Origin: Marinobacterium mangrovicola
Lineage (GTDB): Bacteria > Pseudomonadota > Gammaproteobacteria > Pseudomonadales > Balneatricaceae
Length of the DNA: 64,000 bases
Assembly (NCBI RefSeq): GCF_004339595.1
Contig: NZ_SMFU01000009.1
Span: forward strand, 248,001 to 312,000
Direction: 5' to 3'
Made by a program: the position numbers and the translations under genes. Within the stretch, counting starts at the first letter, position 1. The number at the start of each line of letters is the position of its first letter. Positions 52,390 through 62,353 of this stretch are shown here, piece after piece. The notes beneath the pieces are model-generated. The model searched no databases, had not been told where the DNA came from, and saw nothing but the letters and a program-made list of their open reading frames with translations.

Positions 52390-52476
52390 GCCGGTGTGGT
52401 GAAATTGGTATACACAGGGGATTCAAAATCCCCCGCCTTAACGGGCGTGTCGGTTCGAGTCCGACCACCGGCACCA
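52390..52476 (+). tRNA. tRNA-Leu (CAA)
   Basis: 87 nt with CCA and a long variable arm. Acceptor GCCGGTG/CACCGGC, anticodon loop ATTCAAAAT. Marks the junction between core genes and the island; tRNA-Leu 3' ends are common integration sites. Confidence 0.97.
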
Positions 52477-52561: not shown

Positions 52562-52714
52562 CATCTCCCAGCTGTTTAGATTAATTTCCTCTCGATAAGA
52601 CCATAACTCGACTACCCGTAGGGTCAAGGACCGGCTGCCCCTAGCACTGTGATTTTCAGCTTCACCAAGGGTAGACTCCCTAGCTGATTGTCATACCTGC
52701 ACGGAAAGCCACCA

Positions 52715-55700
52715 ATGTCTGCACTCTCCCAGCTTCTTGATACCTACAGATCAATTTCAGTCACTGAACGCGAGAAAGGCACTTACTTCGAGGAGCTGAC
52801 CTGTTGTTATCTGCGAAACGAAGCCACCTACCGTGACCTCTACGACAAGGTATGGATGTATGGCGACTGGGCGGAAGAACAGGGGCTGATCAAACGTGAC
52901 ACTGGGATCGATCTGGTAGCCCGCACCCAAGGCACAGGGGAGTATCACGCCATCCAATGCAAGCTGTACGCGGAAGATCACCGAGTGCAGAAGAAGGACA
53001 TCGACAGTTTCTTTACCGCATCCGGCAAGAAACCATTTACCCATCGCGTCATAGTCGTCACCAACAACAACTGGAGCGACAACGCCCGTGAGGCCCTGAA
53101 GGATCAAACCCCCGCAGTTACCCTGATTGACCTCCAGGCGCTCGAAGACAGTCAGATTGACTGGACCAGCTATCAGCCCCAGCAAGCGCCAGACCTAAAG
53201 GCTTTCAAAGAACTGCGCGAACACCAGAAAACTGCGTTGGCTGCAGTAACGAAGGGACTGGCAAGCCACGATCGCGGTAAGTTGATCATGGCCTGCGGCA
53301 CAGGCAAGACCTTCACAAGTCTCAAGATTGCTGAGAATCTTGCGGGTGCAGGTAAACGGGTACTATTCCTCGTGCCGAGTCTGTCACTGCTTTCCCAGAC
53401 CCTTACTGAGTGGACGCAGGAGAGCACAACTCCACTGCACAGCTTCGCTGTTTGCTCTGATAGCGATGTTGGAAAGAAAAAGCGCCAGCAGTCCGATGAC
53501 CAGGTTTTCACCCTGGTTCATGAATTGCGCTATCCAGCTACCACCACCCCCCACAGCCTCGCCACCGAAGTCAGCAAGCGCCATGACAGCGACCACATGA
53601 GTGTGGTGTTCTCCACTTACCACTCTATCGACGTGATCAGCCAAGCCCAACAGGGTTACGGCCTTGCCGACTTCGACCTGATCATCTGTGACGAGGCACA
53701 CCGCACCACCGGAGCGACCTTTGCTGACGATGACGAAAGCGCCTTTGTCCGCATCCATGACTCAGCCTATATCCGGGGACAGAAGCGGCTCTACATGACC
53801 GCCACACCCCGCGTATATGGCGATAGCGCCAAGATCAAAGCCGAAACGGATAATGTCGTGCTGTACGACATGAACGACGTGTCTTACTACGGCCCTGAAC
53901 TCCATGTCCTGACCTTCTCCGAAGCCGTACAGCGCCGCCTACTGGTGGACTACAAGGTTTTGGTATTGGCTGTCGAGGAGAGCCACGTCAACCGCCGCCT
54001 GCAGAACCTGTTGAAGGACGAAAACAACCAGCTAAAGGTAGATGATGCCGCCCGGATCGTCGGATGCTGGAAGGCGCTGGCTAAGCAGGGACTAACAGAT
54101 GACCTGATCGGTGACGGCGATCCCATGAAGCGCGCCGTGGCCTTCTGCCAGGTTATCGAACCCGAGTACAGGGGCAGCAAGCACAAGGTCAGCTCCAAGA
54201 ACATTGCCGGCATTTTTCAGGCCGTAGTGGAGGCCTACCAGGAATCGGAAGACATCGAGCCAGCCACCCGTCTGACTTGCGAAGCCGCCCATGTGGACGG
54301 CAGCATGAATGCAAGCCAGAAGGAAGAAAAGCTGGCTTGGCTGAAGGAAGACACCCCGGAAAACACCTGCCGTATCCTCAGCAACGTGCGCTGTCTGTCT
54401 GAAGGCGTGGACGTTCCTGCTCTGGACGCCGTGCTGTTCCTCACCCCGCGCAACTCTCAGGTAGACGTCGTGCAATCCGTTGGTCGCGTAATGCGCAACG
54501 CTCCTGGCAAGCAGCGCGGCTACGTCATCCTACCTGTGGTAATTCCCGCTGGCGTGGAACCCCACGAAGCCCTTAACGACAACGAGACTTATAGAGTGGT
54601 CTGGCAGGTGTTGCAGGCCCTGCGTTCCCACGATGACCGCTTTGACGCGACCATCAACAAGCTGGACTTGACCGGACCAGACCCGCGCAAGATGGAGGTC
54701 ATCGCCATCACAGACAAGCTGCAGCAGAAGGCTAAGGCCCACAGCAAGGGCAATCAGATCAAGGATTCAGCCAAGGGCAGCTACAACATCGGCCAGCGTC
54801 AGCAAAAGAACCACGACGCCGAAGGACAGATGACCGAGCAACACGGCCTGACCTTCGAGGTGGGAGAAATCGAACGCGCCATCTATGCCCGCATCGTGCA
54901 GAAGTGTGGCAATCGACATCACTGGGCCGACTGGGCCAACGACATTGCAAGGATTGCCCGAACCCACATTGACCGCATCCACTCGATCCTGGAAGACCCA
55001 TCTCACACCGAGGAGCGGGCCACTTTTGCTGCCTTTGCCGAAGAGCTGCGCGATGACTTGAACGACAGTATCACCGATCACGAGATCGTCGAAATGCTGG
55101 CGCAGCATCTGGTAACCAAGCCGGTCTTTGATGCCCTGTTCGACGAGTACAGCTTTGCCAACCACAACCCCATGTCACTGGCTATGCAAGGCGTGCTGGA
55201 CGCCTTGCACGAACACCACTTGGCCAAGGAAGCCGACACCCTGCAGAAGTTCTATGAAAGTGTAAAGCTGCGAGCCGAAGGCATCGACAGCGCCCAGGGC
55301 AAACAGAAGATTATTGTGGAGCTGTACGACAAGTTCTTCCGCAACGCCTTCCCTCGCATGACCGAGCGACTGGGTATCGTTTACACCCCGGTGGAGGTGG
55401 TGGACTTCATCATCCACAGCGTCAACGACCTGTTGCAGCAGGAGTTCGGCCAGACGCTGGGTAGCCCCGGCGTACATATCCTAGACCCCTTCACAGGCAC
55501 CGGCACCTTCATCACCCGTTTGCTACAAAGCGGCCTGATTGCACCGGAGCAGTTGCCGCACAAGTACAAGCACGAAATCCATGCCAATGAGCTGGTCCTG
55601 CTTGCCTACTACATTGCCGCCATCAACATCGAAGCGGCCTACCACGGCCAAGTCGCTAACGAATATTCCCCCTTTGCCGGCATCTGCTTGACAGACACCT

Positions 55701-57634
55701 TCCAGATGTATGAAAAGGATGATTTGGTAGACGCTCTGCTGGTAGACAACAGCGCCCGCCGCAAGCGGCAGAAGGCACTGGATATTCGCGTCATTATTGG
55801 CAACCCGCCGTACTCAGTAGGCCAGGGCGATGCAAACGCCAACAACCAGAATGTGGGCTACCCCCATTTGGATTCCCGCATCCGGGATACCTATGCCGCC
55901 CGCTCCAGTGCTACCAACAAGAACGCACTGTATGACAGCTATATTCGCTCCATTCGCTGGGCCAGTGACCGGCTAGGTGACAGCGGAGTCATCGGCTTCG
56001 TCACCAATGCAGGCTTTGTCGAGTCCAACACCGCCGACGGTCTTCGCCAGTGCCTGGCCGAAGAATTTTCCAGCCTCTATATCTTCCATCTGCGAGGCAA
56101 CCAGCGCACGGCCGGCGAAACCTCCCGTCGGGAAGGCGGTAAGATCTTCGGCAGCGGCAGCCGCGCCCCAATTGCCATTTCCTTACTAGTAAAGAACCCC
56201 AAAGCCAGCCAGTACGGGGCCATCCACTACCATGATATTGGCGACTATCTGAGCAGGGAAGACAAGCTGGAGCGCATCAGCGAATTGGCCAGCGTGGCCG
56301 GCATCACTGCAGAACAGGGCTGGCAGATCATCACACCGGATGAACATAGTGACTGGCTGAAGCAGCGGGATACCAGCGTGGACAGTTTCATCGTCTTAGG
56401 TGACAAGCGCAATGATTCGACTATCACACTGTTTTCCAACTATTCAGCCGGAGTGAAGACCCAACGCGATGTCTGGTGCTACAACTCCAGCAAGGCGAAG
56501 TCTGGCGAAAACATGGCACGCATGATCGGTTTCTACAACGCCGAACTGCGCAGCTTCAATCAGCACCACCAAGGTATGGACAGGAAGCAGCGTGAAGCTG
56601 TAATGGATGGCGTCATCAACACCGACCCGGCCAAAATCAGCTGGACACGCGCCCTAAAGCACGACTTTGCCAAAGATCGCGCACTAACCTTCGACGCCAG
56701 CAACATCGTGCCGGCGCTGTATCGCCCGTTCCAGAAGCAGTGGATGTACTACAGCCGCCGGGTCAACGAAATGGTTTACCAGATGGCACGAATTTTCCCG
56801 GACGGCATAGCGGAAAACCGCATGATCATGATCAAGCAACGCTGGAGCGGCCAAGGTCAGCTGGCACTGATGGTAAATTGCATTCCAGAGCTGCAGACCG
56901 ATGGCGGTACTCAGTGCTTCCCGCTCTACCTGTACGACGAAGCCCCGGAAGCCAGCCAGCAGCCGCAAACCGGCCTGTTCGACGCCCCGGCCAGCCCCGA
57001 GCGCCAGCGCCGTGACGCCATCACCGACGAAGGGCTGGCGCACTTCCTGGCCGCCTACCCCGGCGATCAGATCAACAAGGAAGACGTTTTCTATTACGTC
57101 TATGGCCTGCTGCATTCGCCGGACTACCGCGAACGCTACGCCGACAACCTGGCCAAGGAGCTGCCGCGAATCCCCTGCGTAAAGACAGCTGCCGACTTTT
57201 GGGCCTTCAGCACGGCCGGCCGTAACTTGGCCGACCTGCACCTGAACTACGAAACCCAGCCGCCCTACCCGGCCACCATCGGAGGCAACGCCAAGACCGC
57301 CGATGACTACCGCGTGGAGAAGATGAAGTACGGCAAGAAGGGTAAGGACAAGGATCTCACCGTCCTACACTACAACGCCCATATCACTGTCCGGGGCATC
57401 CCACTCGAAGCCTATGACTACGTAGTCAACGGCAAGCCAGCGCTGGACTGGGTCGTGGAACGCCAGTGCGTCAAGACCGACAAGAAAAGCGGCATCGTCA
57501 ACGACGCTAACGACTGGGCCACCGAAACGATGAATAACTCACGTTATCCGCTGGATCTGTTCCTGCGCGTCATCACAGTCAGCCTAGAGACCATGAAGAT
57601 TGTACGCGGCCTGCCCGCACTCGATATAGATTAG
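52715..57634 (+). CDS. Type ISP (single-polypeptide) restriction-modification enzyme
   Basis: 1639 aa. Domains in order: Mrr-type PD-(D/E)XK nuclease (GIDLVAR about 64-70, then IQCKLY about 80-85), superfamily-2 translocase (Walker A ACGTGKT about 193; DEAH box ICDEAHRTTG about 326; SVGRVMRN motif VI), a coupler, gamma-class N6-adenine methyltransferase (DPFTGTGTF about 923; NPPYS about 1030), and a C-terminal target-recognition region. This is the LlaGI/LlaBIII layout (about 1,580 aa): one protein methylates one strand of its site and cleaves after head-on translocation. All motifs look intact. Start is ATG 52715 (GGAAAG upstream), rather than an upstream TTG. Confidence 0.93.
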   Translation: MSALSQLLDTYRSISVTEREKGTYFEELTCCYLRNEATYRDLYDKVWMYGDWAEEQGLIKRDTGIDLVARTQGTGEYHAIQCKLYAEDHRVQKKDIDSFFTASGKKPFTHRVIVVTNNNWSDNAREALKDQTPAVTLIDLQALEDSQIDWTSYQPQQAPDLKAFKELREHQKTALAAVTKGLASHDRGKLIMACGTGKTFTSLKIAENLAGAGKRVLFLVPSLSLLSQTLTEWTQESTTPLHSFAVCSDSDVGKKKRQQSDDQVFTLVHELRYPATTTPHSLATEVSKRHDSDHMSVVFSTYHSIDVISQAQQGYGLADFDLIICDEAHRTTGATFADDDESAFVRIHDSAYIRGQKRLYMTATPRVYGDSAKIKAETDNVVLYDMNDVSYYGPELHVLTFSEAVQRRLLVDYKVLVLAVEESHVNRRLQNLLKDENNQLKVDDAARIVGCWKALAKQGLTDDLIGDGDPMKRAVAFCQVIEPEYRGSKHKVSSKNIAGIFQAVVEAYQESEDIEPATRLTCEAAHVDGSMNASQKEEKLAWLKEDTPENTCRILSNVRCLSEGVDVPALDAVLFLTPRNSQVDVVQSVGRVMRNAPGKQRGYVILPVVIPAGVEPHEALNDNETYRVVWQVLQALRSHDDRFDATINKLDLTGPDPRKMEVIAITDKLQQKAKAHSKGNQIKDSAKGSYNIGQRQQKNHDAEGQMTEQHGLTFEVGEIERAIYARIVQKCGNRHHWADWANDIARIARTHIDRIHSILEDPSHTEERATFAAFAEELRDDLNDSITDHEIVEMLAQHLVTKPVFDALFDEYSFANHNPMSLAMQGVLDALHEHHLAKEADTLQKFYESVKLRAEGIDSAQGKQKIIVELYDKFFRNAFPRMTERLGIVYTPVEVVDFIIHSVNDLLQQEFGQTLGSPGVHILDPFTGTGTFITRLLQSGLIAPEQLPHKYKHEIHANELVLLAYYIAAINIEAAYHGQVANEYSPFAGICLTDTFQMYEKDDLVDALLVDNSARRKRQKALDIRVIIGNPPYSVGQGDANANNQNVGYPHLDSRIRDTYAARSSATNKNALYDSYIRSIRWASDRLGDSGVIGFVTNAGFVESNTADGLRQCLAEEFSSLYIFHLRGNQRTAGETSRREGGKIFGSGSRAPIAISLLVKNPKASQYGAIHYHDIGDYLSREDKLERISELASVAGITAEQGWQIITPDEHSDWLKQRDTSVDSFIVLGDKRNDSTITLFSNYSAGVKTQRDVWCYNSSKAKSGENMARMIGFYNAELRSFNQHHQGMDRKQREAVMDGVINTDPAKISWTRALKHDFAKDRALTFDASNIVPALYRPFQKQWMYYSRRVNEMVYQMARIFPDGIAENRMIMIKQRWSGQGQLALMVNCIPELQTDGGTQCFPLYLYDEAPEASQQPQTGLFDAPASPERQRRDAITDEGLAHFLAAYPGDQINKEDVFYYVYGLLHSPDYRERYADNLAKELPRIPCVKTAADFWAFSTAGRNLADLHLNYETQPPYPATIGGNAKTADDYRVEKMKYGKKGKDKDLTVLHYNAHITVRGIPLEAYDYVVNGKPALDWVVERQCVKTDKKSGIVNDANDWATETMNNSRYPLDLFLRVITVSLETMKIVRGLPALDID

Positions 57635-58777: not shown

Positions 58778-58875
58778 CCGTTACCCTCCTGGCCAGCTGT
58801 TACGAACCGTTAAACGAACATATAACAATATGATACAGGACCAATAGCGGCTTCGCGGGCTCCCGTCAGGTAAGT

Positions 58876-59373
58876 TCAATCAGCTGTTCCGAGCTCGTGG
58901 AAACGCTGAATCCGCTCCTCACCCAACCACTTTTCTATCGGAACAAAACCGTAGTTACTAAGTTCAAATAGCCCCCTTCGATTTAGCAAGGTTAACCCAG
59001 CGTCAAGACACCGTTTCTTCTCGAAGCACTCAAAACGCTCACCCGTATCCCAACTCGCCAGAACTTTGAACAAGCCAACGCAATGGGTAGTACGCGGTCG
59101 TCCACGATCCATCGCCTCGTTCGTGTGGTACACGAGGTCTTCATTATCGTATTCCTGCATCTTGCTCGATAGACGACTCGCTATCCGGGCGGACAAGCCT
59201 GTGCCCACATACGCCAACTCTGTACCGGGAAAGTCCAGCCGATACAGAAATTTGATGTGGCCCGCCACCGGCCCGTATTCAAATAATGATCGTCTTAGCT
59301 CCCTTTCCAGAAAACACACTTGTTTTCTCGTCTTCACCTCAAGATTTAGATCGTATATGACGTTGAGACTCAT
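58876..59373 (-). CDS. GIY-YIG-like nuclease domain protein, Fur-controlled
   Basis: 165 aa of uncertain family. Residues about 43-75 read FLYRLDFPGTELAYVGTGLS then ARIASRL, resembling the GIY...YIG strand pair with a conserved Arg; later FECFEKKRCLDAGLTLLNRR gives the Glu and Asn expected at the end of the domain. Confidence in the nuclease call is moderate. GAGGT ribosome site. A near-perfect Fur box stands about 50 bp upstream, so expression should rise under iron limitation. Confidence 0.55.
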   Translation of the reverse strand: MSLNVIYDLNLEVKTRKQVCFLERELRRSLFEYGPVAGHIKFLYRLDFPGTELAYVGTGLSARIASRLSSKMQEYDNEDLVYHTNEAMDRGRPRTTHCVGLFKVLASWDTGERFECFEKKRCLDAGLTLLNRRGLFELSNYGFVPIEKWLGEERIQRFHELGTAD

Positions 59374-59424
59374 TACTTTTACCTCTTATGGTTGGGTTAG
59401 ACGTAATGATACATAAATCACTTA

Positions 59425-59449
59425 TTAAATGATAATGATTATCATTTAA
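59425..59449. promoter_or_regulatory. Fur box
   Basis: TTAAATGATAAT-G-ATTATCATTTAA is a perfect palindrome with 12-bp arms. Read on the minus strand it matches 16 of 19 positions of the classical Fur consensus, including a GATAATCATTATC run. It overlaps the probable promoter of the gene at 58876-59373. Confidence 0.85.
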
Positions 59450-59571
59450 GTCAGTAGTGACTTACCACCGCCATCACAGAGATAGAGAATGATTAGTAGG
59501 CAGACAAGGCAGCCTATATCAGTCCAAACAGAAGAAACCATACGATTTTAATGGTTTTGTTTATTCAACAG

Positions 59572-59957
59572 CTATAACCCCTCGACATCCATCCCATGTG
59601 TCGCCAGCCACTGCTTGCGCTCGGCATAGTCGGGCATAGCTCTTTCGAGACGAAGCCAGAAGTCGGCTGAGTGATTCGGCTCATGAAGGTGGACCAGCTC
59701 GTGGACCACGACGTACTCGGCGATGCGTACCGGCAGCAAAATGGTCTTCCAGTGGAAGTAGAGCATGGCGCCCTTACCGCATGACCCAGCGAAACCCGAG
59801 GTCCTGCACCTTGAGCCCTGCAGGCTCTACTTCCAGACGGCCAGCAAAGGCCCTCACACGCTGCCAGAGCCACGTTCTGCCACGCTCTCTATACCCATCG
59901 AAGAAATGCTTACGCGCCTCTGACTGGGCGCTACTGCGCAAATTGAAGTACTCCTGG
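59572..59957 (-). pseudogene. Frameshifted remnant of a YgjP-type metallopeptidase
   Basis: Two adjacent frames together give the C-terminal half of a YgjP/DUF45 zinc metallopeptidase. The first runs EARKHFFDGYRERG...VQDLGFRW; the second GSCGKGAMLYFHWK, then VVHELVHLHEPNHSADFW with the HExxH zinc site. At 59785-59787 the minus strand has GGG where five Gs would restore RWGSC, a two-base deletion. The N-terminal part is also missing (in-frame stop upstream). It has decayed inside the island. Confidence 0.82.
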
Positions 59958-60128
59958 ATTCACCGAAGAGGTACGCCACGCTCCTAAACTAAATGAATAA
60001 GTTATGCTGCTTGGAGCGTTGGAATCCTTGACCCTTGGGCTTCGCCCCTTACAGTAGAGCGAAATTTGGGGCTCCCGAGCAGCCCCGCCGGCGCCCGGCT
60101 GACGCCGAGCCCGTAGGGAGTGTCGGAA

Positions 60129-61411: not shown

Positions 61412-62353
61412 TTAAATCCTACCCTGAGCCTTGAGTAGCTGCTGTTGCTCATAGGCATCGGCGTAAAGATCCGCAGCCCTGCGACGCAGGTCCTGAGGTG
61501 CGTAGATTGGTGAACCTTTGAAGCGCACCCTGTTCGATAGCACCTGCTTGCTGATGTAGTCGGCGGCACCGATGTTCACCGGTAGCTTCATCGAGTAACC
61601 ACCACGTCCTCCTTTTTTCTTTTCATAAGCATTAAGTCCGTGCTCATCATCCAGCTCAATCGCAGACGCCACGAAGGAGCCGGACTTAGGCTTGAGCATC
61701 AGTTCGAAATCATCCTGGATCTTGGTGTTATCCGAGTAGTGCCGCATGACCACCATAAGAGCCTCGCGATCTTCAGGGTGGTAGGAAATTACGACGTGGG
61801 CGTGCAGACGCTTATTCTCGCTGAATCCCTGTTCAACAACCAAGAAGAAGCTGGCGTCATGAACCAGCGCCTTGAGCGACTTCTGGAGCGAATCAGAAAA
61901 CGCTCCTGCAGGGCCTTTCTTCCGTTGCTTGAGACGGCGTTCGTATTCTCGGCTGAAGTGCAAGGTGACAAATGATGTGCAGTAGCCTTCGCGCTCCACA
62001 GTCCAAGTGACCAGTGCGTCATACAGGAAACGAAGCTGATAGCTGACTCGACGCTTACCACGATAGTCGATCAGTTTTCTCTTCTTCGGGTGGGGGAGAT
62101 AGGGTAGCTCTTCCGTGGGTATTAGAGCACTATTCATAGTATCTACTGGGAGAAGGTCATTACGCAGAAGCGCAGACTTCTCCAGATACCGCATGATACG
62201 CGGGTTGGGAGTCAAATCACCCGCGTTGCTTTCAGCTTTCATTTTCGCAAAATGCACCCTTTTAGATGAGGAAGCCCCAACTGCCGCTGGGAGTGTGACT
62301 ACATACTCAATGCGGGAGATCTTCGAGACTTCAAGTGCTGGAAGGGTGGCCAA
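61412..62353 (-). CDS. HUH-type rolling-circle replication initiator
   Basis: About 313 aa from a TTG at 62353 (an internal ATG at residue 38 is an alternative). Residues 182-190 read KRLHAHVVI, the HxH metal motif (His184, His186), preceded by a CTSFVTLHFS strand (motif I) and followed by AADYISKQVLSNRV with the likely nicking Tyr266 and a Lys. This is the layout of single-Tyr HUH Reps from plasmids and ssDNA phages. No other plasmid or phage genes are visible, so it may be the core of a small integrated replicon. Confidence 0.7.
   Translation of the reverse strand: MATLPALEVSKISRIEYVVTLPAAVGASSSKRVHFAKMKAESNAGDLTPNPRIMRYLEKSALLRNDLLPVDTMNSALIPTEELPYLPHPKKRKLIDYRGKRRVSYQLRFLYDALVTWTVEREGYCTSFVTLHFSREYERRLKQRKKGPAGAFSDSLQKSLKALVHDASFFLVVEQGFSENKRLHAHVVISYHPEDREALMVVMRHYSDNTKIQDDFELMLKPKSGSFVASAIELDDEHGLNAYEKKKGGRGGYSMKLPVNIGAADYISKQVLSNRVRFKGSPIYAPQDLRRRAADLYADAYEQQQLLKAQGRI

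Follow-up and report, generated by a model that had tools for sequence, protein, structure and literature searches.

A 165-amino-acid (165-aa) protein encoded in a defence island of Marinobacterium mangrovicola is most likely an orphan GIY-YIG nuclease of such islands whose gene has come under Fur repression in this lineage. The gene lies in a window of 64,000 nucleotides, the whole stretch of DNA that was analyzed, where it forms half of a 1.37-kb cassette consisting of an inverted repeat, the GIY-YIG-like gene, a 40-bp palindrome, and a serine recombinase gene (Table 1). The gene family is rare, with three members known. The explanation as a whole, a Fur-controlled GIY-YIG-type nuclease in a defence-island cassette, is held here with about even confidence. 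The combination of features is real and unusual; the iron link is based on one genome, and the nuclease reading is based on a modest model.

Table 1. Features of the cassette and its surroundings, in positions of the window.
Feature	Position	Strand	Remarks
tRNA-Leu(CAA)	52390..52476	plus	3′ end (52461-52476) is the left attachment repeat
Type ISP/IIG restriction-modification enzyme (Mrr_cat_2, helicase, N6-MTase, ISP specificity domain)	52688..57634	plus	same island
Serine recombinase (resolvase/invertase family), 225 aa	58100..58777	minus	PF00239, E 1.2e-27, residues 4-139
40-bp imperfect palindrome TGTATC..TGTTCGTTTAAC..GATACA	58798..58837	.	upstream of recombinase; kept in four loci
Orphan GIY-YIG-like gene, 165 aa	58876..59373	minus	ATG start; Y44, Y55-V-G57, R63, E118, N131 invariant in three homologues
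Predicted promoter, -35 TTATCA / 18-nt spacer / -10 TATCAT	59406..59435	minus	consensus match only
25-bp perfect palindrome with exact 7-1-7 Fur core TGATAATNATTATCA	59425..59449, core 59430-59444	.	sequence match
Second inverted repeat TAAGTCA-N4-TGACTTA	59447..59464	.	left cassette end; overlaps Fur palindrome by three bases
YgjP-like metallopeptidase remnant	59571..59998	minus	frameshifted near 59787, 5′-truncated

An earlier, sequence-only reading of this DNA had described a 165-aa gene and, overlapping its promoter, a 25-bp perfect palindrome matching the Fur consensus at 16 of 19 positions. These points were borne out; the cassette to which the gene belongs had escaped that reading. The open reading frame is present on the minus strand, with an ATG and a Shine-Dalgarno sequence (AGAGG, 59382-59386), and the arms of the palindrome are 12 bp long and 100% complementary around a 1-nt center. 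By eye, the reverse-complement consensus GATAATGATTATCATTATC agrees with 59431-59449 at 16/19 positions, so that the earlier figure stands, versus 15/19 for GATAATGATAATCATTATC as written. An exact 15-bp 7-1-7 core is present as well. The palindrome covers the predicted -35 element (59435-59430), the -10 element lying at 59411-59406; the promoter itself is a consensus match, and the number of promoter-like matches found here is close to that in shuffled sequence (3 versus 1.6). A palindrome placed over the predicted -35 element would occupy the classical position of a repressor.

The genome as a whole was scanned for the motif. Exact 7-1-7 cores were found three times in the 4.98-Mb genome, compared to about 0.003 expected at the GC content of the window; there were 8 sites with at most one mismatch and 37 with at most two, versus 1 for a reversed-pattern control. 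Genes starting just downstream of other sites encode an IucA/IucC siderophore synthetase, an adjacent MATE exporter, a sigma-70-family (ECF-type) factor, and a TonB-dependent receptor. Two Fur-family proteins are encoded in the genome as well, one a strong match (142 bits) and the other a weaker one. Given the genome-wide enrichment, the sites at iron genes, and the presence of Fur, the motif is well supported as the Fur-type operator of this organism rather than a chance AT-rich palindrome. Its position strongly suggests that Fur represses the 165-aa gene, which would then probably be turned on when iron is short. Because some other sites (e.g., at loci L006 and L009) adjoin genes not obviously related to iron, a site alone is no proof of regulation. 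At L006 (∼1501-1515), an exact Fur core lies between chemoreceptor-like and arylsulfatase-like genes with no obvious iron function.

Homologues of the 165-aa protein were sought with the single protein and with a profile in the genus (8 genomes), the family (116 genomes), and samples of the class (369), order (390), and phylum (398), as well as in plasmids, phages, viral contigs, and GTDB contigs. Two true homologues were identified among the 116 family genomes, in an Amphritea sp. metagenome-assembled genome (MAG; 47% identity) and in Neptuniibacter pectenicola (44%), and none beyond these two was accepted in the class, order, and phylum samples, plasmids, phages, or viral contigs. Two further matches were rejected as chance. 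One, L004 (E 0.004), falls within a glycine dehydrogenase gene or antisense to it; the other, L074 (E 3e-5), is an antisense-type frame only, in a ribosomal protein gene region.

Neither homologue has a Fur box upstream (0/2); each has a TTGTTT-16-TATCGT promoter, as judged by eye, directly after the inverted repeat. Iron control as a general rule for these genes is therefore not supported. The site could be a real operator that is nonetheless incidental, having come about through promoter replacement or drift, with a product that has no iron-related use. The shared alternative promoter of the two homologues fits such an account, as does the decay of the island, where the YgjP-like gene is frameshifted, but an exact 25-bp palindrome is unlikely to last without selection, and the excess of exact cores across the genome also speaks against it; overall, we consider an incidental site somewhat unlikely. 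With three copies, two of which are sister-like (75% identity), gain of the Fur box in the window lineage and its loss in the other are indistinguishable. Rewiring to Fur repression in the window lineage is stated here as the most likely reading.

Copies of the cassette are also present next to restriction genes in Amphritea and Neptuniibacter, with the same gene order and strand in 3/3 copies. Between the latter two genomes, a 1371-bp block spanning the inverted repeat through the recombinase gene is 81% identical, and the flanks are unrelated, with YgjP and DUF6988 genes in Amphritea and hsdR and TIR genes at the second homologue locus. The equivalent left-end repeat is perfect with changed bases in Amphritea (TAAGTAA-N4-TTACTTA) and retains 5/7 pairs in Neptuniibacter. 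This repeat marks the edge of the conserved block, and the two-sided base changes keep its pairing in Amphritea. The 40-bp palindrome is probably a binding site of the recombinase, a crossover site, or an operator; no second copy was found in the islands.

The two cassette genes diverge unequally. The window recombinase is 78 to 79% identical to its partners in both homologous cassettes, compared to 44 to 47% for the GIY-YIG-like protein. Between the Amphritea and Neptuniibacter copies, the GIY-YIG-like gene has a dN/dS of 0.30 to 0.45, indicating purifying selection that is weaker than that on the recombinase (0.06 to 0.08); dS is saturated between the window copy and its homologues. The recombinase also occurs without the GIY-YIG-like gene, in two genomes (G065 and G053) and as a broken copy in a third (G067), and is therefore independent of the nuclease-like gene. 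Among the plasmid relatives of the recombinase that were examined (Methylobacterium and Pontibacter), none is immediately preceded by an annotated nuclease gene in the same orientation. Another, distinct small protein, whose motifs look like GIY-YIG (GVYAIW...FYCGMSG; L026, 3064-3414), is encoded ∼2.5 kb from another related serine recombinase.

These observations bear on the possibility that the pair is a mobile-element module, in which the GIY-YIG-like protein would help the recombinase to move or rearrange the cassette (by nicking, homing, or site choice) with no direct defence role, and the Fur box would tie movement to iron stress. The constant adjacency, order, and strand of the two genes, the homologous block that ends at the inverted repeat and the recombinase amid unrelated flanks, and the conserved palindrome before the recombinase are all in keeping with this account. 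The solitary recombinases, the failure to find a second 40-bp site in the islands, and the very different evolutionary rates of the two genes are not, and we regard such a module as unlikely.

All three complete cassettes (3/3) are within islands at tRNA-Leu(CAA). The window island is 14.2 kb long (52461-66652) and is delimited by a 16-bp repeat of the tRNA 3′ end, the right copy of which (66637-66652; L027) is beyond the window. At its far end (about 64960-66528) is a 522-aa open reading frame that is integrase-like by sequence, with a Pfam match to DUF6538 only and no integrase domain match. The description of the locus as a defence island is supported by these boundaries and by the restriction genes inside them. 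The further statement that the gene is next to restriction genes is loose: the type ISP enzyme starts about 1.2 kb and an Mrr-like gene of the island about 3 kb from the 165-aa gene, and its nearest neighbors are the serine recombinase gene and the broken YgjP-like gene. The latter is intact at the same place in Amphritea, and the C-terminal part of the window remnant is 92% identical to the Amphritea protein. Thus, the window and Amphritea share the order of YgjP and cassette, and the window copy has since decayed.

Near the cassettes in the other islands, the cargo includes type I restriction-modification, PrrC, and TIR genes and the PADLOC candidate-defence gene PDC-S52. The Neptuniibacter island at tRNA-Leu(CAA) also adjoins queA-tgt. 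In a Neptuniibacter relative (G067; L024, 300-11295), the frameshifted recombinase has a Tn7-like transposon on one side and a Dsr1-type SIR2 gene on the other, with an integrase remnant alongside. Within the window island, a gene at 61412-62353 has a weak match to a G2P-type replication protein model (PF23343) and is possibly left over from a filamentous phage or a rolling-circle element.

The probable assignment of the 165-aa protein to the GIY-YIG fold was derived from its motifs and a structural model. The FLY (42-44) and YVG (55-57) motifs lie on predicted strands 39-47 and 54-58, R63 is in predicted helix 61-66, and E118 is in predicted helix 112-124 and is followed by N131; at the sequence level, these three correspond to the catalytic Arg of the first helix, the Glu of the later helix, and the Asn after it that mark the superfamily. 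All of these residues are invariant in 3/3 members although the homologues are only 44 to 47% identical to the window protein overall, and the conserved stretches of the three-protein alignment include E118-K and DAGL.LLNR. An AlphaFold2 model from the three sequences (pLDDT 70, pTM 0.68; pLDDT 39 when run without the alignment) additionally contains helix 78-89 and strand 95-104. When the model was compared with the PDB by VIA-align, the top five rows were all GIY-YIG enzymes, namely CMoRE/PD-T4-3 (9u7u, Z 4.8; 9u75, 4.6; 9u7z, 4.4) and I-TevI (1ln0, 4.5; 1mk0, 4.1), scores of 4.1 to 4.8 being below the level that excludes a chance arrangement; a Z under 5 can reflect a common arrangement. 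The next rows were unrelated folds at Z 3 to 3.7 (the little finger of Y-family polymerases and acetone carboxylase), and UvrC came further down (1yd6 and 1yd2, Z 2.7 and 2.1). Foldseek returned no significant match for the model against the PDB or viral structures; many of the best viral matches, none of which reached significance, are annotated as GIY-YIG or homing nucleases. An hhalign comparison with 31 GIY-YIG relatives had the right register at an insignificant probability of 1.5%, with 1/100 shuffles scoring better.

The protein has no match in Pfam, NCBIfam, PHROG, PADLOC, or PDB sequences (E up to 1-10). In the absence of a sequence-profile match, it is named GIY-YIG-like here and is not filed as a member of the superfamily, a profile match being a criterion of detection that lies outside the definition of the superfamily. 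The GIY-YIG-like motifs named in the sequence-only reading are moderately supported, by the invariant residues and the best PDB alignments and without recognition by HMMs, and the structure prediction that it proposed as a check places GIY-YIG enzymes first, at Z 4 to 5 and with Foldseek results that are not significant. That the motifs are fortuitous and the product is an unrelated small alpha/beta protein, as could be argued from the lack of an HMM match at any threshold, the low Z of a model built on three sequences only, and the other folds close behind, is quite improbable given that the motif spacing and topology fit GIY-YIG and that such enzymes fill the first five places of the VIA-align ranking and account for many of the best viral matches. 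On this basis, we consider that the GIY-YIG fold is probable and that the protein is most likely a small GIY-YIG-type nuclease without a recognizable target-sensing domain; the conserved residues weakly suggest nuclease activity.

Under the preferred reading of a Fur-controlled nuclease, the cassette would be carried in tRNA-Leu defence islands of a family that includes Amphritea and Neptuniibacter. Iron-loaded Fur would bind the palindrome, block the -35 element, and silence the GIY-YIG-like gene, and perhaps the recombinase gene too, by read-through. Upon iron scarcity, Fur would be released and the nuclease made, and it would degrade incoming phage or plasmid DNA at the time when siderophore receptors are derepressed. 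Siderophore receptors are common phage entry points. The gene may thus limit phage or foreign DNA under iron scarcity; its company in defence islands hints at the cutting of foreign targets and at an anti-phage role. The most far-reaching version, an iron-gated restriction-type defence in which a new GIY-YIG family is mobilized with a serine recombinase via tRNA-Leu islands, silenced by Fur, and armed under iron starvation when siderophore receptors are exposed, is speculative, and we consider it very doubtful. If Fur control and nuclease activity are both true, the gene would exemplify immunity that depends on metal status, of which no published case was found in the open-licence literature, and the idea that a defence is deployed at the highest receptor exposure would become testable. 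Even without the iron link, the conserved pair of nuclease-like gene and recombinase is a small unit that may serve to move genes of defence islands.

Several known systems resemble parts of this arrangement; no paper joining GIY-YIG with Fur-regulated expression was found in the open-licence literature. Like the catalytic domain of I-TevI and the N-terminal domain of UvrC, the 165-aa protein has a predicted beta-beta-alpha-beta-alpha order with comparably placed Y, YxG, R, E, and N residues, but it has no detectable sequence similarity to them and carries an additional N-terminal strand and helix. Its Arg is also two residues nearer the YVG motif: the catalytic Arg is 10 residues after the YVG-equivalent Tyr in I-TevI and UvrC, compared to 8 for R63. 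CMoRE/PD-T4-3 is a single-gene type IV restriction enzyme with a GIY-YIG domain, about 246 aa long; its C-terminal domain senses 5hmC, and its GIYxY-YIG motif includes a third Tyr (PMC12923530). The two proteins have in common the best structural alignment (Z 4.8 over 92 residues, 14-128), a small single protein, and a defence context. In contrast, the 165-aa protein stops ∼35 residues past the core, with no C-terminal modification-sensing domain, and lacks the third Tyr, with Y44-R45-L46 in the window and a single Tyr there in 3/3 members. Since both the third Tyr and the sensing domain are absent, it is not CMoRE.

Serine recombinases beside anti-phage genes, such as PinQ, are a recognized and poorly explained pattern (PMC12529663). 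The window recombinase is similarly a small serine recombinase within a defence island and differs in that an orphan GIY-YIG-like gene accompanies it in a discrete cassette of 1.37 kb. Microcin E492 is a Fur-repressed accessory gene (PMC6071977). In both cases, a gene that does not serve uptake has a consensus Fur site at its promoter, whereas the gene in the window is nuclease-like and is located within a restriction island.
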